A program made the position numbers and the translations under genes. Below are positions 2,097 through 32,219 of a stretch of DNA of 35,462 bases, piece by piece. Position 1 is the stretch's first letter; each line of letters opens with the position of its first letter. This DNA is from Cyanobacterium sp. T60_A2020_053 (GTDB lineage Bacteria > Cyanobacteriota > Cyanobacteriia > Cyanobacteriales > Cyanobacteriaceae). Location: assembly GCA_015272165.1 (NCBI GenBank), contig JACYMF010000032.1, positions 1 through 35,462 on the forward strand, written 5' to 3'. Under the pieces are notes generated by a model. The model made no database searches and was not told where the DNA came from. It saw nothing but the letters and a program-made list of their open reading frames with translations.

Positions 2097-3626
2097 TTAC
2101 CACCACTTCCTCTTACCATCAGGAAATAAAGTGCGCCAATTAGTCTTAGCTAACTTCAGTTGTTCCTCATTCACCTTAGCGCCCGTCAAATTCGCTCCAC
2201 ATAAATTAGCATCCTTTAAACTAGCTTCTTCTAAATTAGCTTTTTGTAAATCAGCACCAGTCAAATCAGCATTTTTCAAATTAGCCTTATATAACTCCGC
2301 CCGTTTTAAAATAGCCTCTTTCAAATTAGCCTGAGCTAAATTAGCTCCCACAAAATTAGTACGATATAAATTAGCTTTCTCCAAATTAACCCCAATTAAC
2401 TTACTCTGAGAAAAACTAGCACCCGTTAATTTTAAACCTTCCAAATCAAAACCACTCAATACCTGTTGACTAAAATTACGATTTCCGCGCCCATATTCCT
2501 GATAAATCAAATCAGGGGTTAATTGCATCTTCGGAGTGGTCATAACAGGTACACTAGGATTAGATTTTTGAGGATTATTTGCCTTTTCTCTTCTCTTGCG
2601 AATAGCATCTGCTAAATTCTGCGAAGTCAAGCCAGAGACTGTTAAATCTGCTGAAGAATCTTCGTCATCATGACCGATAATATCCTTAGTGGCACTTAAA
2701 TTAACCATTCCCCCTGCCAACTCTTGCTCATAAGGTACTAATTCCAGAGCCTGTATTACTTCATCTGCTGAAGCAAAACGTTTACGTACGTCCAGTTCCA
2801 ACATCTTATTTAAGACTTTGGCAAAATTAGGTGTTACTGCTGTATATTTTTCCCATTGTAGTTCACCCGTACTGTTATCGCACATATCCTTGGGAGCTTT
2901 ACCCGTCAAAAGATAGATACAAGTAGCGGCTAAGGCATAAATATCACTGGAATAGACAGGGCGCATTGCCAACTGCTCTGGTGGGGCGAAACCCATTGTC
3001 CCAACGGAAATTTTGGTAAAAGCACTTTGGGGACTAGCGTTCATCAACTGAGTGTTAACCTGTTCTTTAACTGCCCCAAAATCGATTAAATATAATTTTT
3101 TCGTTTCTTTTTCTTTTAAGATATTCCCCGGTTTAATATCACGATGAATTACTTTTTGGGAGTGAATATATTTTAATACAGGCAATAAACTTCTTAAAAA
3201 ACTTTTAGCAGAAGATTCCTGATAAGTACCACCTTTTTTAACTTCTTTCTCTAAGTCTTTTCCTAAAATAAAATCTTGAATCAAGTAAAACTGTTCTCTT
3301 TCTTCAAAATAATTCAAGAGACGAGGAATTTGAGTATGCTCCAGCTTCGCCATAGTTTTTGCCTCTCGGCTAAACAAATCTAATGCTGTTTTATAGGAAT
3401 CAGGATTAGTGGTCGCTGGTTCAAGTTGTTTTACCACACAATACTTATTTTTTTGAGCCATATCCACTGCCAAATAAGTTGTACCAAATCCACCTCGACC
3501 AATTTTTTTTATGGCTACATAACGTTTATGGAGAATCAGATTTGAACCACAGCTACGACACTTTTTGGTTTTAGTGTCATTTTGTGGATTTTCACAATGG
3601 GGATTTAGGCAATAGATAATGCTCAT
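2097..3626 (-). CDS. SpkB-type serine/threonine protein kinase with pentapeptide repeats (copy 2)
   Basis: Upstream member of the tandem kinase pair. It has the same four cysteines (C6, C11, C23, C26), Gly-rich loop IGRGGFGTTY at 42-51, K66, HRDIKPGN at 161-168 with catalytic D163, and DFG at 182-184, so it should be active. The C-terminal pentapeptide array from about 410 is longer and more regular than in its neighbour, rich in ANLxxA and ADLxxA units, and ends in the same Phe-Pro-Asp-Gly-(N/K)-R-(R/K)-W-W tail. The linker between kinase and repeats is the most diverged part, which suggests that partner choice rather than catalysis has drifted. Which copy is the orthologue of Synechocystis spkB cannot be decided here. 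Confidence 0.93.
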   Translation of the reverse strand: MSIIYCLNPHCENPQNDTKTKKCRSCGSNLILHKRYVAIKKIGRGGFGTTYLAVDMAQKNKYCVVKQLEPATTNPDSYKTALDLFSREAKTMAKLEHTQIPRLLNYFEEREQFYLIQDFILGKDLEKEVKKGGTYQESSAKSFLRSLLPVLKYIHSQKVIHRDIKPGNILKEKETKKLYLIDFGAVKEQVNTQLMNASPQSAFTKISVGTMGFAPPEQLAMRPVYSSDIYALAATCIYLLTGKAPKDMCDNSTGELQWEKYTAVTPNFAKVLNKMLELDVRKRFASADEVIQALELVPYEQELAGGMVNLSATKDIIGHDDEDSSADLTVSGLTSQNLADAIRKRREKANNPQKSNPSVPVMTTPKMQLTPDLIYQEYGRGNRNFSQQVLSGFDLEGLKLTGASFSQSKLIGVNLEKANLYRTNFVGANLAQANLKEAILKRAELYKANLKNADLTGADLQKANLEEASLKDANLCGANLTGAKVNEEQLKLAKTNWRTLFPDGKRKWW

Positions 3627-5566: not shown

Positions 5567-5809
5567 AAGTAACTCAGTTGCAGATTATTTGATCGGTGAA
5601 GGTGAAAAATAGGGTTAAATAATTTTTACCGACTAATGCCAACAGTTTAACAAAAATTCAAAGTCAGTAGATCGAAAAAGATACTTTAGATATATTCTTT
5701 TTACCCAAAAATATTTTATGTGACTTAAGAATTAAAATATTGCTTTTATCGCATAATGCTATTCTTGCATAATGTATAATTTGTTACAGAAATATTTATT
5801 AGTTATACC

Positions 5810-6445
5810 ATGAGTGAAATTCAGATTAAGTCTATTGACATTATTCCCAAAATCATTAGTGACCTTCATGACGGTGAAATAGTAGCTTTGCATACTGATA
5901 TGGTTTATATTCTTCTAGCCAATGGATTAAATTCTGATGCTTGTGAGAAAATTCATAAACTTAAAAGATGGAATCCTCGTAAACCTCTGACGTTGCTATC
6001 TAATCAGAAAAAACTACCTGAATATGCTCAACTAGATAATAATGCTCAAATCTTAGCTAATCAATTTCCGCTACCTATTAGTCTTATTGTTCCTCATCGC
6101 AATAATCTTTCTGAGATTGTCACAGCAGGACATAATACTATTTTTGTTTCTTGCCCTGATAACTTTACCTACAGGCTAGTGGAAAAATGTTCCTTCCCTA
6201 TCGTTGCAGGAACAGCTAGTTTTGGTGGCGATTTTAGAGCTAATAATGCCAAAGTTACTGAGCAATTCTTCGGCAATAATGTAGCTCTAATTATTGATGG
6301 TGGCGATTCAAAAGAACGCATTAGAACTACTTTAATTGACTGTCACTTACCTTTACCTACAATTATGAATTTTGGTCTAATTTCTTATGATGAATTACGC
6401 TTAATCCTTCCCCATATTGAATTGCCTTCTCATTTGCGTAAATAG
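5810..6445 (+). CDS. Sua5/YciO/YrdC/YwlC family protein (divergent)
   Basis: The 211 residues show the YrdC fold pattern: an N-terminal EIVALHTDMVYILLANGL strand-helix (canonical GG.v.ypTeTvYGLgan), then LKRWNPRKPLTLL matching the K-R...KPL nucleotide/phosphate-binding segment, and a C-terminal IDGGDSKERIRTTLID in place of the usual lDgG....pSTVvD. Canonical members make threonylcarbamoyl-AMP for t6A37 in tRNA. Here the usual (P)SAN motif is replaced by GTASFGGDF and STV by RTTL, so this may be a paralog of the true TsaC/Sua5 with changed or lost activity. It stands alone on the plus strand with a TAG stop and is followed by a transporter remnant. Confidence 0.8.
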   Translation: MSEIQIKSIDIIPKIISDLHDGEIVALHTDMVYILLANGLNSDACEKIHKLKRWNPRKPLTLLSNQKKLPEYAQLDNNAQILANQFPLPISLIVPHRNNLSEIVTAGHNTIFVSCPDNFTYRLVEKCSFPIVAGTASFGGDFRANNAKVTEQFFGNNVALIIDGGDSKERIRTTLIDCHLPLPTIMNFGLISYDELRLILPHIELPSHLRK

Positions 6446-6488
6446 TTTTTTGTCCATGTCCAATTCCTAATCTATTTTAGTATTATCT

Positions 6489-6740
6489 TTGGGCTATGAT
6501 TTAACTCAACCCTTATTTGTTGGTATTGTCACTGATTTGGGAGATGATAATAATTTAGGACAAACCATTGGTTTGAAAGTATTTGTTCTTTTTACTGGGT
6601 TTGGAGTAGGTAGTTTAATATTTGGAGAATTATTAAATTTTGGTTTTGCTTGGTCTTTGGGAATTTTTGGTATTTTACAACTTTTATTTGGATTAATTGC
6701 CATGCCTTTATTTTGGCAAGAAATACCTAGCCGAAAGTAA
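6489..6740 (+). pseudogene. C-terminal remnant of an MFS transporter
   Basis: The 83 codons read from a TTG encode two hydrophobic helices (about 23-45 and 52-75) with MFS-like content: a GxDLTQPLFVGIVTDL loop, a LFTGFGVGSLIFGE helix and a last helix rich in G, L and F. This resembles the last two or three helices of a 12-TM major facilitator, with everything upstream missing. No good start codon or ribosome site precedes it, and the frame is blocked upstream. The likely explanation is a decayed transporter left after deletion. It is too short to function as an MFS carrier. Confidence 0.55.
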
Positions 6741-6966
6741 TATAAAATGGTTATTCCTCTTTTGTCATTCTTTGAAAATATTTACCATTTTTAAATCACA
6801 GAACTTACTTTGATTAACAAATCATTGCGAGACTTTTTAAGTAATATGAATTATGGGTATTTACACATATATGAAACTTTGTCCGATCAAGGAACTTGAT
6901 CCAAACGTGACAGATAACGGATAATACTTTTTTCTTTACCAAACTAAACTACTTGTTTCCCACGAC

Positions 6967-6996
6967 AAAAAAACCCTCTCCCGTAGGAGAAGGGTT
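6967..6996 (-). terminator. Rho-independent terminator of groEL2
   Basis: Read on the minus strand, the stem is AACCC(T)TCTCC, loop TACG, GGAGAGGGTT, followed by a run of T (plus-strand A at 6967-6973). That is ten base pairs with one bulged T, closed by a C(UACG)G tetraloop of the stable UNCG type, about 25 bases past the groEL2 stop. The core resembles dispersed repeats near 23780 and 33256, so a mobile repeat may have been adopted as a terminator. Confidence 0.8.
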
Positions 6997-7020
6997 AGGA
7001 TAAGGGTAACTAACAAGAAA

Positions 7021-8685
<1,665 letters not shown>

Positions 8686-8724
8686 TTATTTTATTGAAAC
8701 TCTATTTTTTCTCCATACATAAAT

Positions 8725-8751
8725 TTAGCACTCATGGGCGCTGAGTGCTAA
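8725..8751 (-). promoter_or_regulatory. CIRCE operator (HrcA binding site)
   Basis: TTAGCACTC, nine spacer bases, GAGTGCTAA: a perfect CIRCE inverted repeat, 45 bases upstream of the groEL2 start and about 28 bases downstream of the predicted -10 box. HrcA bound here would block transcription and release it on heat shock. The spacer (ATGGGCGCT) contains the window-wide heptamer GGGCGCT at 8736-8742. Confidence 0.95.
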
Positions 8752-8779
8752 TACGGTTATCAGTACCTTTTTTGAGCTA

Positions 8780-8808
8780 ATCTTAATTTGAAGAGTCAGT
8801 AATTTCAA
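8780..8808 (-). promoter_or_regulatory. Predicted sigma70-type promoter of groEL2
   Basis: On the minus strand, TTGAAA (-35, plus 8803-8808), exactly 17 bases, then TAAGAT (-10, plus 8780-8785). The CIRCE operator lies just downstream, where a bound repressor would block initiation or early elongation. The spacing and boxes are near consensus; the start site itself is an inference. Confidence 0.65.
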
Positions 8809-8894
8809 TGGTAGTCTAGATAAGCACACTACAAATTATGAAGGACTGTTATAGTTATATGTTAAAGTTAGCCTAACATAAACTAGCGTAGATA

Positions 8895-9518
8895 ATGAAA
8901 GAATTTGCTAAAAAAACTAGAGAAATAATAATATTATTATTCTATTTACCATTAGGAATTAGTTTTTATTTTACTTCAGAAAAATCTCTTATTACTCAAG
9001 ATATAAATAGGTGGATAAAGTGTTTAAATATTTCTTCAAAAAACAGTGATTTAATTAATTTACTTAGTCTATCATATCAAGCTCCTGAGTTTCGTAATCT
9101 CTATTATTTTAGGTTGTTAAAAGGCAATTTACAAGGTAAAATTTTCATGTATATATTAAAAATCTTTTATCGCCCTTTTAATTACTTTTTTTTAGATAAT
9201 TCCTGTGATATTGGTGGAGGTTTATTTATTCAGCATGGTTTCAGCACCATTATTATGGCTGATTTGGGCGAAAATTGTTGGATTAATCAGCAAGTTACTA
9301 TCGGTTACAAAGATAAAACAGGAAGACCAAAAATCGGCAATAATGTTCGTATTACTGCTGGGGCAAAAGTCTTAGGTAATATTACCATTGGTGATAATGT
9401 GGTGGTGGGCGCTAATGCAGTGGTTACAAAAAATGTCCCTGATAACTGTGTTGTAGTTGGTATTCCAGCGCACATCATCAAAAGGAATGGTGAGAAAGTT
9501 AATGAAAAATTAGCATGA
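8895..9518 (+). CDS. Serine O-acetyltransferase-like hexapeptide acyltransferase
   Basis: The C-terminal half (about 105-195) is a left-handed beta-helix of hexapeptide repeats: IGGGLFIQHGFSTIIMA, then LGENCWINQQVTIG, then IGNNVRITAGAKVLGNITIG, then VVVGANAVVTKNVPDN and a VVGIPAHIIK cap. The pattern is that of CysE/SAT and of the related acyltransferases in polysaccharide clusters. H114 in IQHG matches the catalytic His position of SAT. The N-terminal 100 residues lack the canonical CysE helical domain and contain hydrophobic stretches (about 9-27), so the acceptor may be a sugar rather than serine. The stop overlaps the start of the next gene by 4 bases (ATGA), so the two are translationally coupled, although their products have no obvious link. 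Confidence 0.8.
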   Translation: MKEFAKKTREIIILLFYLPLGISFYFTSEKSLITQDINRWIKCLNISSKNSDLINLLSLSYQAPEFRNLYYFRLLKGNLQGKIFMYILKIFYRPFNYFFLDNSCDIGGGLFIQHGFSTIIMADLGENCWINQQVTIGYKDKTGRPKIGNNVRITAGAKVLGNITIGDNVVVGANAVVTKNVPDNCVVVGIPAHIIKRNGEKVNEKLA

Positions 9519-10279
9519 AATTATTATTAGATCAATATGCCCATTTAGACTCTCCTCTGCATCGATGGCAAGGAAAGTCAAAGTTTATTGCTTTTTTTAG
9601 TCTTATTTTTAGTTTTGCTTTTGTGCAAAAGCTAAGTTTATTACCCTTGGTAATTATTATTACCTTTCTTCTTTTTTATATTTCTAAATTACCTTTAACT
9701 TTTTTATTATCTCGTCTCAAGTATCCGGGTATTTTTATCTTCGGAGTAATATTAGTTTTACCTTTTTTTGCTGGTGAAACTGTCATTTTTTCTTGGGGCT
9801 TTTTAAGTATTAAATCAGAAGGAATATTAACAGTTATTTTAATAGTTACTCGTTTCGTTTGTATTCTGACTATTTCTTTAGTTTTATTCGGCACAGCGCC
9901 CTTCCTCGTTACCTTAAAAACTTTGAAATCATTAGGATTATCTCCCATTCTTAACGATATGATGTTATTAACTTATCGTTATTTAGAAGAAATCAGCAAC
10001 CGCTTATTGATGATGCGAAGGGCGCTGAAATTAAAAGGATTTAACGGACAAAAATTAACCCTGCGTAACTTACAAATTATTGCCAATTTAATTAGTAGTT
10101 TATTGATTAGAAGTTATGACCAATCAAAATTAGTATATCAAGCCATGATATTAAGAGGCTATGGATATGATTCCCCTGATAAAAAACCGATAAAAGAAGA
10201 AATTAATTATCAACACTGGTTTAATTGTGGCGTAATGGTGACAATTAGCGCCCTTCTCATGGTTTTACAATGGCTATAA
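9515..10279 (+). CDS. CbiQ/EcfT family energy-coupling factor transporter transmembrane protein
   Basis: A 254-residue membrane protein with about five or six hydrophobic helices (around 25-40, 45-60, 70-86, 100-125 and 232-250) and the long cytosolic coupling region typical of EcfT. The two short coupling motifs are recognisable as RRALKLKGF near 168-176 and MILRGYGYD near 211-219, in place of the usual ARGF/ARGY pair. In ECF transporters EcfT links the ATPase pair to a substrate-binding S component for vitamin or metal (Co/Ni) uptake. No ATPase or S component is encoded nearby, so this is probably a solitary EcfT serving subunits elsewhere, as is common in cyanobacteria. The start overlaps the previous stop. 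Confidence 0.87.
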   Translation: MKLLLDQYAHLDSPLHRWQGKSKFIAFFSLIFSFAFVQKLSLLPLVIIITFLLFYISKLPLTFLLSRLKYPGIFIFGVILVLPFFAGETVIFSWGFLSIKSEGILTVILIVTRFVCILTISLVLFGTAPFLVTLKTLKSLGLSPILNDMMLLTYRYLEEISNRLLMMRRALKLKGFNGQKLTLRNLQIIANLISSLLIRSYDQSKLVYQAMILRGYGYDSPDKKPIKEEINYQHWFNCGVMVTISALLMVLQWL

Positions 10280-10293
10280 ATAATCGGTTTATA

Positions 10294-10388
10294 AATTGAC
10301 AATGGACAATGGATAATTGACAATTATGAGGTTTTACTATCCTCGTTTTGAATTTAACCTAATACCTGATACCTGATACCTGATACCC
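10294..10388. repeat. Short tandem heptamer-type repeats
   Basis: Two repeat types sit back to back: an AATTGACAATGGACAATGG-like stretch (about 10297-10326), then tandem ATACCTG units (about 10361-10386; four in a row with small variations). Both types recur elsewhere in the window (near 18936 and near 16113, 17463, 17541, 18731 and 31537). No gene is present. Confidence 0.75.
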
Positions 10389-10391
10389 TTA

Positions 10392-10760
10392 TTAAGGATT
10401 AGTAAAAAAAACAAATTTACCGATAAAAGTAAGCAAACCCGTTACCAACACTCCCACCACACCCAAAAAACCGATAGTCAAAGTATTTAAACGACTATTT
10501 ACCTCATCAAAACGTTTATCTACACTATCAAAACGTTTATCTACACTATCAAAACGTTTATCTACACTGTCAAAACGTTTGAGAATTTGTTGATTTTCAG
10601 TTTTTAATTTCTCCACATCAATTTTGGTGTCAGTTAGTTTGGCATCCAAATTGGCAATTTTTTGGTCTAGCTTATCAATTTTCCCATCCAGCTTATCAAT
10701 TTTGCTGTCTAACTTATTGAGGACATCAACTAGACTCATTTCTATGGTGGTTTGTGTCAT
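10392..10760 (-). CDS. Coiled-coil membrane-anchored protein with tandem heptad repeats
   Basis: A 122-residue protein of unknown function. Residues about 8-95 are predicted coiled coil, first with KLDxKIDKLDxKI repeats, then with a seven-residue unit (K/D)RFDSVD repeated about four times at about 61-86. The C-terminal 25 residues form one hydrophobic helix (LGVVGVLVTGLLTFIGKFVF). Such small proteins are often annotated as DUF1640-like or Bdr-like. The coiled coil followed by a tail anchor suggests an oligomeric peripheral scaffold, but this is only inference from composition. The repeat is nearly exact at DNA level, so its length may vary between strains. Confidence 0.7.
   Translation of the reverse strand: MTQTTIEMSLVDVLNKLDSKIDKLDGKIDKLDQKIANLDAKLTDTKIDVEKLKTENQQILKRFDSVDKRFDSVDKRFDSVDKRFDEVNSRLNTLTIGFLGVVGVLVTGLLTFIGKFVFFTNP
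10508..10579. repeat. 21-bp in-frame tandem repeat
   Basis: The 21-bp unit CAAAACGTTTATCTACACTA plus T repeats about three and a half times with one substitution (ACTGT for ACTAT). Because 21 is a multiple of three, the copies add exactly one heptad (KRFDSVD on the minus strand) each, so slippage would change coiled-coil length without breaking the gene. Confidence 0.85.
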
Positions 10761-10857
10761 CAGATTATTACCATCAACAATGTTAATAGGTTATTTGTAT
10801 TCATCCTATCGTATTTGACGTAAGATTCATTTAACCAACATTATTTCTTAATTCTCA

Positions 10858-10880
10858 ACAAAGGGTTTAAACCCCTTGAT
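10858..10880. repeat. Palindromic hairpin AAAGGGTTTAAACCCCTT
   Basis: An imperfect palindrome around TTTAAA, in the 226-bp gap before pilM. It matches the perfect version downstream of htpG at 23417-23440, so this is a dispersed hairpin. It lies between divergent genes and so is not positioned as a terminator. Confidence 0.6.
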
Positions 10881-10986
10881 TCCTAAAAAGAAAAAAATAA
10901 ATTTAATTATTAAAAACTTAGGATAAAATGAGTTTGTAAAAAATAATCCTCTCATCCGTAATAATACGCAAAAGGAAACATTAATT

Positions 10987-12099
10987 ATGTTTGATTTTCT
11001 AAGTAATATACTGGGGGGGCAAAGTAAAGGTGTGGGGATTGAAATTAATCCTGACCGAATTTCTTTAGCCCAATTAAGCAAAAAAGGAACGCAATATAAA
11101 TTAATAAAATATCAATCTTTAGAAGTACCAGAGGGTATCTTTGAAGAAGGACAAATCACTGATTCCACTGCCTTAGCAGAATTAATCGATCAACTATTAA
11201 AAGAAGCTAAAATTAAACCAAAACAAGTGGCAACCGCAGTGCCGATGCGTGAAGCCATTATCAGGATTTTACCTATTCCTGCGGAGTTAAATGATTTGGA
11301 ATTGCAAGATATGGTTTTAAACCATGAAGCCGCCTTATATCTTCCCTACCCCAGAGAAGAAGTAGATTTAGACTATCAAAAATTGGGCTATTTTGTGGAT
11401 GAGGATGGTATCGAAAAGGTGCAAGTTTTATTAGTGGCAACTCGCCGAGAAAACACTGATACTTACCTCGAAACTTTTCAACAAGCTGGTTTAACCGTTA
11501 ATATCTTGGAAATTAATAGTTTTGCTTTAATTCGTACCATTAAAGAACAATTGAAACAGTTTACCGAATCTGAAGCAGTGGTATTGGTGGATATTGAATT
11601 TGATAGTACCGAAATTGCTATTATCGTGGAAGGTGTACCGCAATTTTCTCGTACTATTCCCATTGGTACTTACCAGATGCAAACGGCTTTAGCCCAAGCC
11701 ATGAATTTACCCACCTCGAAAAATACGGAAATTTTACAGGAAATTACCATCCCTAACAATCCAGATCAAACTTCCAGTAGCACCACCAGCAGTCAAACTT
11801 GGATTAATCCGGGTATGGATTCATTATTAAGGGTTTTAGGGGAATTAGTGGATGAGTTGCGCCGCTCGGTTAATTTTTATCTTAATCAAAGTGGTGATAA
11901 GGAAGTAGTACAAATACTCTTAGCTGGACCGGGATCGGGCTTGGCACAAATCGACGAATTTTTTACCAAAAAATTAAGTCTTCCTGCCACACAAATTGAT
12001 CCCGTTGCCTCATTGGGCATTACAATGAAAGATGATTTAACGGGTATGGAACGGGCTGGACTCGGAACTGTACTTGGTTTAGGTATGAGGATGAGCTAG
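10987..12099 (+). CDS. pilM: Type IV pilus assembly protein PilM
   Basis: PilM is a cytosolic actin-fold ATP-binding protein that binds the N-terminal peptide of PilN and links the membrane alignment complex to the motor side of the type IV pilus. The sequence opens with GVGIEINPDRISLAQLSKKG, the first phosphate-loop strand of the FtsA/actin fold, has the VATAVPMREAIIRILPIP segment typical of PilM, and carries IEFDSTEIAIIVEGVPQFSRTIPIG and LAGPGSGL for the second nucleotide-binding half. Its length of 370 residues is normal. AAAGGAAA precedes the ATG at 10987. It is the first gene of pilMNOQ, two bases ahead of pilN, and ends in TAG. Confidence 0.95.
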   Translation: MFDFLSNILGGQSKGVGIEINPDRISLAQLSKKGTQYKLIKYQSLEVPEGIFEEGQITDSTALAELIDQLLKEAKIKPKQVATAVPMREAIIRILPIPAELNDLELQDMVLNHEAALYLPYPREEVDLDYQKLGYFVDEDGIEKVQVLLVATRRENTDTYLETFQQAGLTVNILEINSFALIRTIKEQLKQFTESEAVVLVDIEFDSTEIAIIVEGVPQFSRTIPIGTYQMQTALAQAMNLPTSKNTEILQEITIPNNPDQTSSSTTSSQTWINPGMDSLLRVLGELVDELRRSVNFYLNQSGDKEVVQILLAGPGSGLAQIDEFFTKKLSLPATQIDPVASLGITMKDDLTGMERAGLGTVLGLGMRMS

Positions 12100-27136: not shown

Positions 27137-27256
27137 ACAAGGGAGAAGGGGAAGAAGGGGAAGCGGAGGAGGAAAGGGAGGCAGAGGAGGAAAGGGAGGC
27201 AGAGGGAGAAGGGGAAGAAGGGGAAGCAGGGGAAGCAGGGGAGGAAAGGGGCGTAG
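27137..27256. repeat. Purine-rich (G/A) repeat tract, 120 bp
   Basis: Nearly all G and A on the plus strand, with only isolated C and T. A block GGGAGAAGGGGAAGAAGGGG occurs twice, and an 18-bp unit AGGAGGAAAGGGAGGCAG is doubled between them, with shorter AGGGGAAGC units at the end. Many runs of three or four G give G-quadruplex or triplex potential. Reading frames across it (Gly/Arg/Lys-rich) are artefacts of composition. A related tract is at 35336-35408. Confidence 0.8.
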
Positions 27257-27277
27257 GGGTTGAACAATGTTCAACCC
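27257..27277. repeat. GGGTTGAA hairpin repeat (copy C, compensatory change)
   Basis: Perfect 21-nt hairpin with arms GGGTTGAAC and GTTCAACCC. Compared with the copies at 15891-15911 and 34220-34240 (arms GGGTTGAAT and ATTCAACCC), one base pair changed from T-A to C-G on both sides, keeping the stem intact. AT-rich repeats follow to about 27305. Confidence 0.7.
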
Positions 27278-27346: not shown

Positions 27347-30300
27347 ATGAATTATCCTGTGTTGTCAAACATCACTTTTGCATCTCAATGGACTTTTGTT
27401 AATTATCAACCCATTACCATTTCTGGGGAAACTACTTTTCTAGAAGTTATTCGTAAGTTAACCCATGGGGTTGATTGTCTTCTCGTTACCAACTATGACA
27501 CCAACGATTGTCAACCATTAGGAGTAATCACCACCGAATCAATTATTCAACTCATTGCCACAGGAGTCAATATTTATTCTCTGAGTGCTAAACATTTTTA
27601 CCAAAATTTATGTTTGATACATACAGAAGAGTTAGATAATATTTTTGCCATTGCTCAAAATCTTTATCAAGGAAAATATCATGTTTATGGAGTTATCAAT
27701 GAAGAAAATAAGTTTATTGGTATTATCAATGCCAGAAGTTTAATTAAATATATTAAAACTGATTCTATTTACGCAAATATATTAACAAAAGACATTATTA
27801 AACCTAATTTATTATTAGTGAATCCAGAAGATACTTTATTCAACGTAGTTGATAAATTTAGTTTAAATGAAGGTAAATATGGCTTTATTTTTAATCACGA
27901 TTCATCATTTAAAATAGTTACTCCGAGGCAAATAATCAAACTTTTATTAGATTATAACTGGAAAACCCTAGCCATTAAAGATTTAATTTTTCGAGATTTA
28001 CCCTATTTTTCACCTCACGAAAATCTCCTCAATATTTGTGAAGTTTTATTACATCAAGAAGCAATTTTAATCAATCAAGATGAAAGTTTAAATGAAAAAA
28101 ATCTTTTTTCTAATCGAGTTTGCCATCTTGGGATTGATCATATTTCAGAACATCTTTGTAATCATCTGACTTTGATAACTCCTCAAGATTTAATAGTTAT
28201 TTTAACCCCTCTTTGGCAACAAAATTATTTACGGCAACAACAACAAAAATTAGACCACTTAAAAAGCACTGTCAAACAAGAAAAAAAACAGTTTGAACAA
28301 GAAAAACTCTTATCAAGTCTTAGTTATCGCATTCGTCAATCCCTTAATTTAGAACAAATTTTACAAAGTACTGTAAATGAAGTACGTTCTTTTTTAGAGT
28401 GTGATCGGGTAATCGTGTATCAATTGTATCCCGATGGTGATGGGGTGATTGTGGCAGAATCGGCAGGAGAGGGCGTAATGTCTATTTTAGGGCGTGTGGT
28501 GCAAGACCATTGTTTTGCGAAAGATTTTATTAAACCCTACTTAAATGGACGTATTCAAGCCACTGATAACGTTTTTACAGCTAACCTCTCCCCTTGTCAT
28601 TTGGATTTATTATTAGGGATTCAAGTACAAGCTAATTTAGTTGTACCAATTATTTTTCATGATGGTTTATGGGGTTTGTTGGCGGCACAAAATTCTTTTC
28701 ATCCTCGACATTGGCAACAAGATGAGTTGGATTTATTGCAAAAATTGGCTTCTCAAGTGGCTATTGCCATTCAGCAGTCGGAATATGCCCAAAAAGCCTT
28801 ACAAGTGGCAGAATATCAAACTGCCATAGCCAGTTTGGGTAATACTGCGTTGACTACCAATGATTTGGCAACTCTGGAGGAAATGACGGTTAAAATTGTT
28901 AGTGAGACTTTGGATATTGACTCCTGTAATATTTTAGAGTTACAACCAAATCAAGCGTCTTTTGTGATGAAAGCTGGTATTGGTTGGCATCAGAAATGGC
29001 TAGGGTTGGCAAAAGTTGGCTCGTCTCCCCGTTGGATGCCGGGTTATACCATGAAGGCAAAGCAACCAGTAATTACTGAGGATTTATTGATTGAAACGAG
29101 ATTTAGTCCTCCTCCTTTTTTACATAATACTGGGGTGAAGGGCGCCCTCCTCACCAATATCGGCAATGATCAGAATTATTTTGGTATCATCGGGGTTTAT
29201 AGTTCTGGTCATCGTAAGTTTAGCTCAGAAGAGGTAAATTTTTTACAAACGGTGGCTAACGTGTTGGCAACGGCAATGGAGCGCACGAAATCCCAACGGC
29301 AACTAGATTACTTTTTTAATTTGTCTCTGGATATGTTTTGTATTGCTGGGGTGGATGGCTCATTTAAACGGGTTAATTCCAGTTTTTCCACTACCTTAGG
29401 TTATGGCGAAGCAGAAATGATTAATCAAAATATGCTTTCCTTTGTGCATCCCGACGATGTGGAGATTACTGCCGAGGAATTAGAAAGATTAAGTCGGGGT
29501 TTTCCTAGTCAAAATTTTGAAAACCGTTGGCGCACCTCAGAGGGTTATTATCGTTGGTTGGCTTGGAAAAGTTTACCCTACGAGGAAGGCACTATTTACG
29601 CTGTAGCACGAGATATTACACTAGCAAAACAAGCGGAAGAGCAGTTGCGGGGGCTTAATGAGGAGTTGGAGATTAGGGTAAAAGATCGTACGGAAGAGTT
29701 AGAACAAACCACTACCCAATTAAGAACTTTTGTACAGACGGCTGGAACGGTTTTGGTGGTGTTAAACCAACGTTATCGTATCATGGAATGGAATGAGGAA
29801 GCGGAGAAAATTTTTGGTTGGAGTCGAGATTCGGTATTAGGGGAAGATTACTTTCTCTTGTTTGTAGCGCCCTCCGACAGACAAGGTTTGAGGGCGTCTC
29901 TTAATCATACCCTCACGGAAGGTCAGGTGCAACGGAATTTAGAAAGTAAAGTCATGGTGGCGGATGGCACGGAAAGAACTTTGTTATGGAATGTTAACCG
30001 TTTCACTGATGCCCAAGGGCAAGGTATTGGTATTATCGCCTGTGGGCAAGATATAGAGGAAGTGCGCTTGGCTCAACTGCGCTTAAAGTTAAGTGAAGAA
30101 AGATTCCGCAGTATTTTTAATCAGGCGGCAGTAGGTATTTTACAGGTTAGCTTACCCGGTAAATTAGTGTTGGTTAATGATAAATTTAGCCAATTAACTG
30201 GTTATTCTCGTCAAGATTTAGCGGAGTTAGATTTTCATGATTTAATTCACCCCGATGATGTGTCTGATACCCTCACGGATTTATCGGAATTATTGGCAAG

Positions 30301-31498
30301 TCAAAGGGCAACATTTGAGCGCGAGATTAGGATGAGGGGCGCTGATCAAGATTTCCTCTGGATTAATTTAACCATGTCAGTGGTATGGGTTGCTGTTGAG
30401 CCTTCTTACTTTATCGCCGTCATTAATGATATAAGTGACCGTAAAGAAGCCGAAGAATCTTTACAAAAAAGTGAATCTCGTTTGAACAGTGTTCTTAGTT
30501 CACTACAAGATGTAGTATGGTCAATGTCATTACCTGACATGAATTTGCGCTATATTAACCCAGCTTGTGAAATTTTGTATGGTCATTCTCCACCGTCAAT
30601 CTTAGCAGACAGAAGGCTTCTATTAGATATGGTAGCGCCCGAATACCGACAATTAGTAGAAAATATTTGGGCAGAAATTTTGGAAAGTTACAAACTGGGC
30701 ATTTTGCAAAATGAAACCAATAAAAAATGGGAATTAGAGTATAAAATTATTCTTGCTAATGGTCAATCCAGATGGATTCGGGAAAGGTCTCACATCGTTT
30801 ATGATCGGTATGGGTGCGCCGTAAGTATTGATGGTATTTCCACTGATGTCACTCAGCGCCATGAAGCAGAGGAAAAATTATTTAAGTCATTACAAGAAAA
30901 AGAAGTTTTACTCAAAGAAATTCATCACCGAGTGAAAAATAATCTTTACGTCATTTCCGGTTTATTGAATTTACAATCAACCTATGTGGAAGATGAAGCT
31001 GTGCGTAATTTATTCCATGATAGTCAAAATCGTATTCAAACTATGGCAGTTATTCACGAACAACTGTATCAATCTGATGACCTTTCGGAGATTAATTTTG
31101 CTGATTATATCAAGCGTTTAGTGTCTAATTTATTCTTTTCCTACAATCAAGGAGGCATTAAACCCATTACTAACTTAGAGGAATGTTATCTCAATATTGA
31201 AACGGCTATTCCTGCCGGGTTATTGATTAATGAGTTGGTGACGAATGCTTTTAAACACGCTTTTCCAGCAGGGAAAGGGGAAGTAACTATTAATTTAAAA
31301 GTGTGTCAACCGAAACATATTTGTTTGGAAGTCAAAGATAACGGTAAAGGATTACCTCCTCAGTTGGATTGGGAAGATAGCCCCTCTTTAGGATTGCGCC
31401 TCGTGCGCTTGTTAACTCAACAATTAGATGGAGAAATGACCGTTAATTCTGATGATCATGGTACTTGTTTTTTCTTACAATTTGAACCTTTTAATTAA
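27347..31498 (+). CDS. Multi-domain sensor histidine kinase: 4 CBS, 2 GAF (first DXCF-cyanobacteriochrome-like), 4 PAS, HisKA_2, HATPase
   Basis: The 1383 residues read as four CBS repeats (about 15-290), a coiled coil (295-322), GAF1 (about 325-478), GAF2 (about 490-648), PAS1 (about 652-772), a coiled coil, PAS2 (about 793-912), PAS3 (about 916-1038), PAS4 (about 1041-1178), HisKA_2 (KEIHHRVKNN; candidate phosphoacceptors H1193/H1194) and a HATPase domain (about 1280-1383). GAF1 carries both cyanobacteriochrome cysteines: C389 in DHCF and C417-H418 in the SPCH motif, 28 residues apart, the spacing of the DXCF photoreceptor TePixJ. A bilin chromophore and blue/green-type light sensing are therefore plausible. 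No membrane helix is visible, so the protein is probably soluble. No response regulator is adjacent. CBS repeats suggest an additional nucleotide input. Confidence 0.9.
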   Translation: MNYPVLSNITFASQWTFVNYQPITISGETTFLEVIRKLTHGVDCLLVTNYDTNDCQPLGVITTESIIQLIATGVNIYSLSAKHFYQNLCLIHTEELDNIFAIAQNLYQGKYHVYGVINEENKFIGIINARSLIKYIKTDSIYANILTKDIIKPNLLLVNPEDTLFNVVDKFSLNEGKYGFIFNHDSSFKIVTPRQIIKLLLDYNWKTLAIKDLIFRDLPYFSPHENLLNICEVLLHQEAILINQDESLNEKNLFSNRVCHLGIDHISEHLCNHLTLITPQDLIVILTPLWQQNYLRQQQQKLDHLKSTVKQEKKQFEQEKLLSSLSYRIRQSLNLEQILQSTVNEVRSFLECDRVIVYQLYPDGDGVIVAESAGEGVMSILGRVVQDHCFAKDFIKPYLNGRIQATDNVFTANLSPCHLDLLLGIQVQANLVVPIIFHDGLWGLLAAQNSFHPRHWQQDELDLLQKLASQVAIAIQQSEYAQKALQVAEYQTAIASLGNTALTTNDLATLEEMTVKIVSETLDIDSCNILELQPNQASFVMKAGIGWHQKWLGLAKVGSSPRWMPGYTMKAKQPVITEDLLIETRFSPPPFLHNTGVKGALLTNIGNDQNYFGIIGVYSSGHRKFSSEEVNFLQTVANVLATAMERTKSQRQLDYFFNLSLDMFCIAGVDGSFKRVNSSFSTTLGYGEAEMINQNMLSFVHPDDVEITAEELERLSRGFPSQNFENRWRTSEGYYRWLAWKSLPYEEGTIYAVARDITLAKQAEEQLRGLNEELEIRVKDRTEELEQTTTQLRTFVQTAGTVLVVLNQRYRIMEWNEEAEKIFGWSRDSVLGEDYFLLFVAPSDRQGLRASLNHTLTEGQVQRNLESKVMVADGTERTLLWNVNRFTDAQGQGIGIIACGQDIEEVRLAQLRLKLSEERFRSIFNQAAVGILQVSLPGKLVLVNDKFSQLTGYSRQDLAELDFHDLIHPDDVSDTLTDLSELLASQRATFEREIRMRGADQDFLWINLTMSVVWVAVEPSYFIAVINDISDRKEAEESLQKSESRLNSVLSSLQDVVWSMSLPDMNLRYINPACEILYGHSPPSILADRRLLLDMVAPEYRQLVENIWAEILESYKLGILQNETNKKWELEYKIILANGQSRWIRERSHIVYDRYGCAVSIDGISTDVTQRHEAEEKLFKSLQEKEVLLKEIHHRVKNNLYVISGLLNLQSTYVEDEAVRNLFHDSQNRIQTMAVIHEQLYQSDDLSEINFADYIKRLVSNLFFSYNQGGIKPITNLEECYLNIETAIPAGLLINELVTNAFKHAFPAGKGEVTINLKVCQPKHICLEVKDNGKGLPPQLDWEDSPSLGLRLVRLLTQQLDGEMTVNSDDHGTCFFLQFEPFN

Positions 31499-31644: not shown

Positions 31645-31902
31645 TTAGAGTAGAACATCTAATCTTGGATTTCCATCACCTGAAAAGGTTTGATAAATAC
31701 TTTGACGATTAAGGTTAGTTTCCTCAGCCAATTTTTCAATACCGCCCATTGCATTAGCAACATCACGAATAGCTAACAAAAAGGCTTCAGTGTTATGGTC
31801 ATTTTCATAATCTTCTAACGCTATCAGTAAATAAGCCCTTGCTTCTAATGGTGAGGCTAATTTTTCTAAATGCCAATCTTCAAATTTAGTATAAGGTTTC
31901 AT
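31645..31902 (-). CDS. HigA-like addiction-module antidote (short C-terminus)
   Basis: An 85-residue antitoxin of the addiction-module-antidote family (TIGR02684, XRE-like): LASPLEARAYLLIALED, then FLLAIRDVANAMGGIEKLAEE with helix-turn-helix continuation TNLNRQSIYQTFSGDGNPRL. Family members usually continue 10-15 residues past LDVLL; here TAA follows, so the last helix is missing and the gene may be truncated. The ATG at 31902 overlaps the toxin stop by 4 bases (ATGA), giving the toxin-first order of HigBA. Autoregulation through the HTH is expected from family knowledge; no operator was identified. Confidence 0.82.
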   Translation of the reverse strand: MKPYTKFEDWHLEKLASPLEARAYLLIALEDYENDHNTEAFLLAIRDVANAMGGIEKLAEETNLNRQSIYQTFSGDGNPRLDVLL

Positions 31903-32219
31903 CTGTTTCTTTCTTGATAATCTTGCCAATAAACTTTTGCTTGATTTATGTCCTTTTGTTGAGTTGATTTATCTCCTCCACACAAAAGTAAAACGATAAC
32001 ATTACTTTCTTTAGCGTAATAAACTCGATAACCGTTGCCAAAAAAAAATCTTAATTCATAGACGCCATCTCCCACAAGTTTACTATCACCAAAATTACCA
32101 ATGGTAATTTGACGCAACCTATTACGGATTCGTAACTGATAAGATTGGTTTCTTATACCATCATACCATTTGATAAACGGCTGTTTTCCTTCTCTAGTCT
32201 GGTAAATTCTAACTTCCAT
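31899..32219 (-). CDS. HigB/RelE-like toxin (phage-derived Gp49-like family)
   Basis: A 106-residue RelE/ParE-superfamily toxin of the putative addiction-module-killer type (TIGR02683, Gp49/DUF891). It has the typical opening of a TReGKQPFIKWYDGIRN-type sequence, a central RIRNRLRQITIGNFGDSK basic helix and the VYELRFFFGNGYRVYYAK strand pair with VIVLLLCGGDKSTQQKDINQA near the end. Such toxins cleave mRNA at the ribosome. The basic and aromatic residues (R67, Y71) lie in the expected active-site strands. It is the first gene of the pair, 4-base overlap with its antidote; both run convergently toward the kinase gene end. Confidence 0.87.
   Translation of the reverse strand: MEVRIYQTREGKQPFIKWYDGIRNQSYQLRIRNRLRQITIGNFGDSKLVGDGVYELRFFFGNGYRVYYAKESNVIVLLLCGGDKSTQQKDINQAKVYWQDYQERNR

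Follow-up and report, generated by a model that had tools for sequence, protein, structure and literature searches.

A DXCF-type candidate cyanobacteriochrome kinase with an N-terminal CBS disc, and its likely phosphorelay partner, in Cyanobacterium sp. T60_A2020_053

Introduction

Cyanobacteria must balance light colour against energy state, and a four-CBS disc joined to a bilin-binding GAF domain is a ready-made site for integrating the two. Such a combination is predicted in a 1383-amino acid histidine kinase encoded on contig JACYMF010000032.1 of Cyanobacterium sp. T60_A2020_053 (assembly GCA_015272165.1), whose positions 1 to 35,462 were analyzed as a whole (the window). The original prediction, made from the DNA sequence, held that the first GAF domain (GAF1) is a DXCF-type cyanobacteriochrome (CBCR) and that the CBS repeats sense nucleotides, so that light and energy charge would be integrated in one kinase. 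Here we ask whether GAF1 is a light sensor, whether the CBS block reads energy charge and which protein receives the signal. The best overall explanation, which we hold with moderate confidence, is that the protein is a DXCF cyanobacteriochrome kinase whose CBS disc serves as a scaffold or altered ligand site and whose partner is a receiver-HisKA-HATPase protein encoded on another contig (C62) of the same genome.

Results

The kinase is composed of the following parts, given by window coordinates and strand:

27347..31498 (+): whole open reading frame (ORF), 1383 amino acids, ATG start, in the order CBS x4, GAF1, GAF2, PAS x4, HisKA_2, HATPase
27392..28216 (+): four-CBS disc, residues about 16-290, predicted fold AMPK-gamma/SSO3205-like (Pfam in two stretches, model, motif residues)
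28217..28318 (+): helical linker from CBS disc to GAF1, residues 291-324 (model helix 288-332; predicted local distance difference test score, pLDDT, below 50 at 319-333)
28319..28786 (+): GAF1, CBCR-type with DXCF motif, residues 325-480 (sequence, tree, model)
28505..28516 (+): DHCF motif, residues 387-390, with the second Cys, C389, at codon 28511-28513
28595..28600 (+): canonical chromophore Cys C417 and H418 (conservation)
28814..29311 (+): GAF2, residues about 490-655, without chromophore cysteines (Pfam, sequence)
29309..30886 (+): four PAS domains, residues about 655-775, 791-905, 915-1040 and 1045-1180 (Pfam)
30899..31144 (+): HisKA_2 dimerisation/phosphoacceptor domain with EIHHRVKNN, H1193/H1194 (Pfam, sequence)
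31184..31486 (+): HATPase_c with intact N, G1 and G2 boxes (Pfam, sequence)

All of the kinds of domain in the original prediction were recovered by Pfam, with CBS in two stretches, two GAF domains, PAS in four stretches (PAS_3 and PAS_4), HisKA_2 at residues 1191-1266 and HATPase at 1292-1379. The motifs HHRVKNN, NELVTNAF, DNGKG and LGLRLV mark the HisKA_2 domain and the N and G boxes of the HATPase, and GAF2 has C527 as its sole cysteine and, as had been claimed, no CH pair. The parts are ordinary, their combination is unusual, and the architecture is not unique.

GAF1 contains D387-H-C389-F390 and, with 28 residues between the two cysteines, C417-H418. When TePixJ (2m7u) is aligned to this stretch there are no gaps and the cysteine spacing is likewise 28, which bears out the motif and spacing originally described. 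Shuffling the protein 20,000 times gave this exact arrangement (D-x-C, 28 residues, CH) in 12 cases, and conservation is the stronger argument for the motif. A homologue search over 60 genomes, including that of the window, returned 13 full-length or near-full-length homologues with 56-77% identity, all within the family of the window's organism (f1; one of them, L012, is cut by a contig end), together with one remote relative, L022. Across these 14 sequences and the window protein, D387, C389, F390 and C417 are invariant (15/15 rows), and we therefore rejected the idea of a chance motif. The pocket-side segments A429-I435 and I403-A405 are also invariant across the family and L022. Position 385, where XRG CBCRs have Trp, is Val in 14 rows and Ile in L022. 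In comparison with its genus mates (L009-L012), the window protein is 89-92% identical in GAF1, 92-96% in HisKA_2, 84-93% in the PAS domains, 76-81% in the HATPase and 70-72% in GAF2; the CBS block, at 40-43%, is the least conserved.

To place GAF1 among known GAF domains, we assembled a domain set of 175 matches, 149 of them near-full, plus seven references. A quick tree of 143 rows, with nine named loci and gappy and identical rows removed, had its classes set by alignment column, and AnPixJg2 fell among the rows lacking Trp owing to a gap; it was superseded by a tree of 54 rows picked by hand and stripped of the motif columns, in which the bootstrap was still not fully stable, so that its values are rough. 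In this final tree, GAF1 and 46 rows with the canonical Cys are split from seven cysteine-less GAFs (support 98/98), and the canonical-Cys side holds TePixJ, AnPixJg2, Slr1393g3, RcaE (8k9o), 6oap and the GAF1 family. The phylogeny proposed in the original prediction thus puts GAF1 with the CBCRs and apart from the non-bilin GAFs, an identity that we reject on the strength of the 98/98 split. The red/green references form a clade (100/99), with GAF1 outside it.

Other GAFs fall near GAF1 and TePixJ in the same tree. The GAF1 family shares its unresolved branching point with four loci (L022, L047, L077 and L023), three of which (L022, L047 and L023) carry CBS blocks. TePixJ itself clusters with three further GAFs encoded in the window's genome (L003 twice, and L008) in a part of the tree where the forks are largely open. 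These three are DXCF GAFs on contig C8 (L002/L003 and L004/L008), which encodes two further proteins: one has two DXCF GAFs, and the other has a DXCF GAF and a GAF that reads DPCIP without the canonical Cys and fits the DXCIP lineage as described in the consulted part of PMC6628166.

Structure points the same way. The best solved sequence matches to GAF1 are the dual-sensor photoreceptor kinase 6oap (8.8e-45) and TePixJ 2m7u (5.1e-33). A GAF1 model built from 82 rows (the window and 81 of the 120 CBCR rows listed) has a mean pLDDT of 84.4 and resembles TePixJ 4glq with Z 24.2 (149 aligned residues, root-mean-square deviation (rmsd) 1.9) and 6oap with Z 24.5; among the 50 matches listed, all are phytochromes, CBCRs or bilin proteins engineered from them. 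The genome also encodes PcyA, which scored 350.9 bits against an equivalog cut-off of 206 and is the sole bilin reductase found. Thus, the claim that GAF1 is a DXCF cyanobacteriochrome is supported by sequence, tree, predicted fold and genome content.

The type assignment follows the lineage rule set out in the part of PMC11284453 used here, by which the DXCF type is indicated when the second Cys lies in DXCF and WXDXXL lacks its Trp. Because GAF1 has its second Cys in DXCF and lacks that Trp, we assign it to this type, which according to the same source typically turns phycocyanobilin into phycoviolobilin, with the second Cys joining C10. Two other identities were considered and rejected. An XRG red/green receptor would have Trp in WXDXXL, where GAF1 has Val385, and would be expected inside the red/green clade. 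A phytochrome is set aside because the Pfam scan, which covered 15 families at E up to 1, gave no PHY match, and GAF1 is followed by GAF2 and PAS domains.

Four points weigh against the DXCF reading. His418 is found in 13 of the 15 rows, with Tyr in L020 and L021; Gln448 is present in all 15, at a position where His is commonest over 129 rows (81 His and 28 Gln, the family and L022 making up 15 of the latter); the forks within the CBCRs are mostly open, so that the place of GAF1 among the DXCF lineages is unsettled; and DXCF photoproducts are diverse, from teal to orange, in the part of PMC6628166 consulted, so that the motif does not fix the colours. The literature searched offered nothing on the His/Tyr position that follows the chromophore Cys, and the colour prediction was not sharpened. 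GAF1 may therefore bind a bilin in a manner that is not classical blue/green, either keeping phycocyanobilin or having a C389 that does not ligate C10. The uniform Gln448, the photoproduct diversity reported in PMC6628166 and the replacement of the C389 equivalent in some near CBCR rows (L044, L051 and L057 among them) and in 6oap all fit this possibility; D387 and C389 are nevertheless invariant in every row, and we take it seriously while considering it somewhat unlikely. That GAF1 is a CBCR-derived domain that has stopped binding bilin seems very improbable. Relatives do have cysteine-less GAFs in the same proteins as CBCR GAFs, and GAF2 of the window protein itself lacks the chromophore Cys, but in GAF1 the cysteines and pocket-side segments are retained throughout the family and L022, and the tree separates it from the cysteine-less group.

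Comparison with characterized photoreceptors places the DXCF cyanobacteriochrome reading in context. The TePixJ GAF (4glq/4fof/2m7u) shares the DXCF and CH cysteines with GAF1 and is 43% identical to it over matched columns; TePixJ carries the annotation of a methyl-accepting chemotaxis protein, whereas the window protein has a HisKA_2 kinase output. The dual sensor histidine kinase of 6oap/6oaq/6ob8 is the closest solved sequence (46% identical) and, like the window protein, has a CBCR GAF in a kinase, but its motif reads DQYF and hence has no second Cys, where GAF1 has DHCF. DpxA and RcaE, CBCR photoreceptors of chromatic acclimation, are light sensors of the same kind; kinase activity of DpxA is reported in PMC4937213, the consulted part of which mentions no CBS block for either protein, whereas the window kinase has one.

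Does the CBS block add a second input? In a model of residues 1-490, pLDDT is mostly 75-92 at residues 21-240 and 271-300 and low at 1-13 and about 241-270. Residues 11-299 match SSO3205 with AMP bound (Z 20.1, 254 aligned, rmsd 3.7), MJ1225 (Z 19.9) and AMPK-gamma (Z about 16-17). Because the model matches four-CBS discs, four CBS units are likely, although Pfam detects two; the original count of four is upheld by the predicted fold and only partly by the domain search.

The CBS nucleotide signature is G-h-h-T/S-x-x-D. We compared 14 members of the family in this respect with 11 relatives whose CBCR locus includes a CBS block; two of these relatives (L060 and L065) have the block in a reading frame apart from the GAF frame and enter the CBS counts only. 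None of the 14 family members has the signature Asp in CBS1, versus 10 of 11 relatives, and one (L009) has it in CBS3, again versus 10 of 11. CBS2 lacks it in every member of both groups and is uninformative. For CBS4, read by eye from the table of motif residues, it is present in three family members (the window protein, as D281, L010 and L011) versus 5 of 11 relatives. The Gly of CBS3 is likewise absent from the entire family and present in all 11 relatives, with the same counts for CBS4, while all 14 family members retain the Gly of CBS1 and that of CBS2. D281 is thus the only signature Asp in the window protein, with CBS1, CBS2 and CBS3 all lacking it. The family is one clade, so the losses represent few independent events and its counts are not independent. 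We also considered faster decay of CBS in the family: family pairs at GAF 0.7-0.8 have a CBS mean of 0.34 (range 0.28-0.42), and the only comparable relative pair, L102-L108 (GAF 0.79, CBS 0.44), lies close to them, so we claim no difference in rate.

These data bear directly on the idea of a kinase with two inputs, light through GAF1 and adenylate charge (AMP/ATP) through the CBS disc. Such a kinase would fit the predicted likeness to AMP-bound SSO3205 and AMPK-gamma and the retention of the signature in CBS1 and CBS3 by most relatives; moreover, with D281 kept and the CBS alignment divergent, a nucleotide could still bind, which tells against our preference for light sensing only. It is countered by the loss of the Asp of CBS1 and, with a single exception, of CBS3, by the loss of two Gly residues that no relative has lost, and by the low conservation of the CBS block within the genus (40-43%, versus 89-92% for GAF1). 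We judge it unlikely for the window protein. On sequence grounds, the contrast tells against an ordinary adenylate sensor here and in favour of one in the relatives, and because most of the nucleotide signature is gone in the family, sensing of light alone is more likely for the window protein than combined sensing of light and energy. The nucleotide-sensing claim of the original prediction therefore stands as to disc fold and falters as to the ligand site: compared with AMPK-gamma, MJ1225 and SSO3205, the disc is similar in predicted fold (Z about 16-20), but the family is without most of the nucleotide-site signature and the window disc is fused to a light-sensing kinase. Energy-charge sensing is more plausible in the CBS-bearing relatives.

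CBS-CBCR fusions recur in other cyanobacteria. Using a profile grown from L022, which may have let others escape, we found a CBS block in frame before a CBCR GAF at nine loci outside the family (L022, L023, L047, L074, L100, L102, L108, L113 and L118), seven of which fall among the 80 named loci. They include an uncultured Coleofasciculus (L047), a member of the Oscillatoriaceae (L113), an Oscillatoria (L100) and Richelia sinica (L118). Pfam verified both CBS and GAF in all five that were scanned (L023, L047, L100, L113 and L118), whose outputs are HisKA_2 in L023 and L113, as in the window kinase, HisKA in L047, HisKA with two receivers in L118 and GGDEF in L100. In L022 and these five, as in the window protein, a CBS block precedes a CBCR-type GAF within a single frame; unlike the window's family, they have the signature Asp in both CBS1 and CBS3. 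The L118 locus (R. sinica FACHB-800, 5782-11256) encodes a hybrid kinase with a DCCL/CH GAF, and a 356-amino acid ORF begins 9 bases after it on the same strand. SesA (Tlr0924) may have a CBS region, although the consulted part of PMC4067208 mentions none. In the parts of the literature covered, including PMC8846402, PMC4067208, PMC9953108 and PMC7291507, no text joins CBS and CBCR in one protein, a search that excludes most subscription papers and supplements and does not imply that the fusion is unpublished. CBS is tabulated as a histidine-kinase sensing domain in thermophilic cyanobacteria (PMC9953108), and a phosphosite lies in the CBS domain of a multi-sensor kinase from Arthrospira platensis C1 (PMC7291507). 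Like the window protein, these are cyanobacterial kinases with CBS; the consulted parts of both papers mention no bilin GAF.

To which regulator, then, would the kinase signal? By Pfam, none of the ten other ORFs of at least 100 amino acids between 18970 and 35292 of the window encodes a receiver protein, so an adjacent cognate regulator was rejected, and a partner was found through synteny in other genomes. In Geminocystis sp. GBBB08 (L040), a 378-amino acid receiver-HisKA-HATPase gene begins 16 bases after the kinase stop on the same strand, and the same gene is the downstream neighbour in all five genomes of a sister genus (L013-L017). The window's genome has an orthologue (67%) on contig C62, at 2337-3431, apart from the kinase. 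We counted partner matches at E up to 1e-60 over the 60 genomes and took pairing from the coordinates: 37 of 51 come immediately after a HisKA_2 domain in the same orientation, with 359-641 bases from domain end to match start, and outside the family 32 of 36 directly follow a HisKA_2 kinase. Both genes occur in 35 genomes, the partner alone in two (in G057 as a partial match), HisKA_2 alone in 10 and neither in 13 (Fisher 1.5e-5, uncorrected for relatedness); outside the family the corresponding counts are 20, 2, 10 and 13 (p 0.0012, also uncorrected). On this sequence evidence, the receiver-HisKA-HATPase protein is the likely phosphorelay partner of the window kinase, and this pairing is new in the present analysis.

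Three observations count against that assignment. The pairing is not universal, because 43 of 80 HisKA_2 domains have no partner match after them, compared with 37 that do; in 9 of the 14 family genomes with the CBS kinase (those of the window and its four genus mates, and of two other genera) the two genes are split from each other; and the window's genome has a second, distant receiver-kinase (26%). The receiver-HisKA-HATPase protein might thus be an old HisKA_2 partner that was re-assigned in the window's genus, with the window kinase serving another regulator. This would agree with the splits, which also include G005, and with the further receivers in the window's genome. Set against it, the window ORF is the sole HisKA_2 kinase found in its genome, where one close partner copy was found, and that copy has no HisKA_2 domain within 1.5 kb on either side; we regard re-assignment as improbable. 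G005, a 67%-complete genome of the same family, has in-frame TGA codons in its matches to the HisKA_2 kinase and the receiver-kinase (C74:2193-2852 and C129:14600-15706).

The surroundings of the gene were also examined. A purine-rich tandem repeat of 9/18 bases lies just 5' of the ORF (27139-27250) and resembles at least 39 places elsewhere in the genome, among the 40 scored matches listed. It is followed by a perfect hairpin, GGGTTGAAC-AAT-GTTCAACCC, at 27257-27277, 69 bases 5' of the start codon, and then by an A/T-rich stretch; the hairpin could be terminator-like or a regulator site. A promoter scan gave no excess of sites (18 found, 18.1 expected). At L039 (MAG T3Sed10) the 5' neighbour of the kinase differs from the 187-amino acid ORF of the window. 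A 106-amino acid ORF at 31899-32219 (-) matches the Gp49-like phage protein family PF05973 at 23.6 bits, below the cut-off of 23.9; we take this family to be RelE-like.

Discussion

We propose the following mechanism. GAF1 would bind phycocyanobilin at C417, and light would isomerise the bilin; upon photoisomerisation, C389 would form or break a second thioether at bilin C10. These two steps are modelled on the behaviour of known DXCF receptors. The predicted dark state is blue-absorbing and the photoproduct green or teal, probably after conversion to phycoviolobilin. GAF2 and the four PAS domains would then carry the signal from GAF1 to the HisKA_2/HATPase module, which would autophosphorylate at H1193 or H1194. 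From there the phosphate would move to the receiver of the C62 protein, a step suggested by synteny and genome content; since that protein is itself a kinase, the result would be a two-kinase relay. In the window's family, the N-terminal AMPK-gamma-like CBS disc may act as a scaffold or altered ligand site.

More broadly, CBS-CBCR kinases may form a class in cyanobacteria, with an AMPK-gamma-like disc through which adenylate charge gates a light-sensing kinase and, among the HisKA_2 members, with a dedicated second kinase to feed; the window's family would have lost the adenylate input and kept light and relay. We offer this as a tentative and rather doubtful generalization. If it is true, the family would be a natural experiment, in which the contrast with its relatives isolates what energy sensing adds to light sensing. 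Energy-charge sensing would be the most exciting part of the original claim; it is unlikely in the window protein and worth testing in the relatives, and the comparison points to those with the CBS signature, rather than to the window species, for the integration of light and energy. The recurrent HisKA_2/receiver-kinase pair, in turn, gives many sensor kinases of cyanobacteria, the orphan kinase of the window among them, a downstream target that can be tested.

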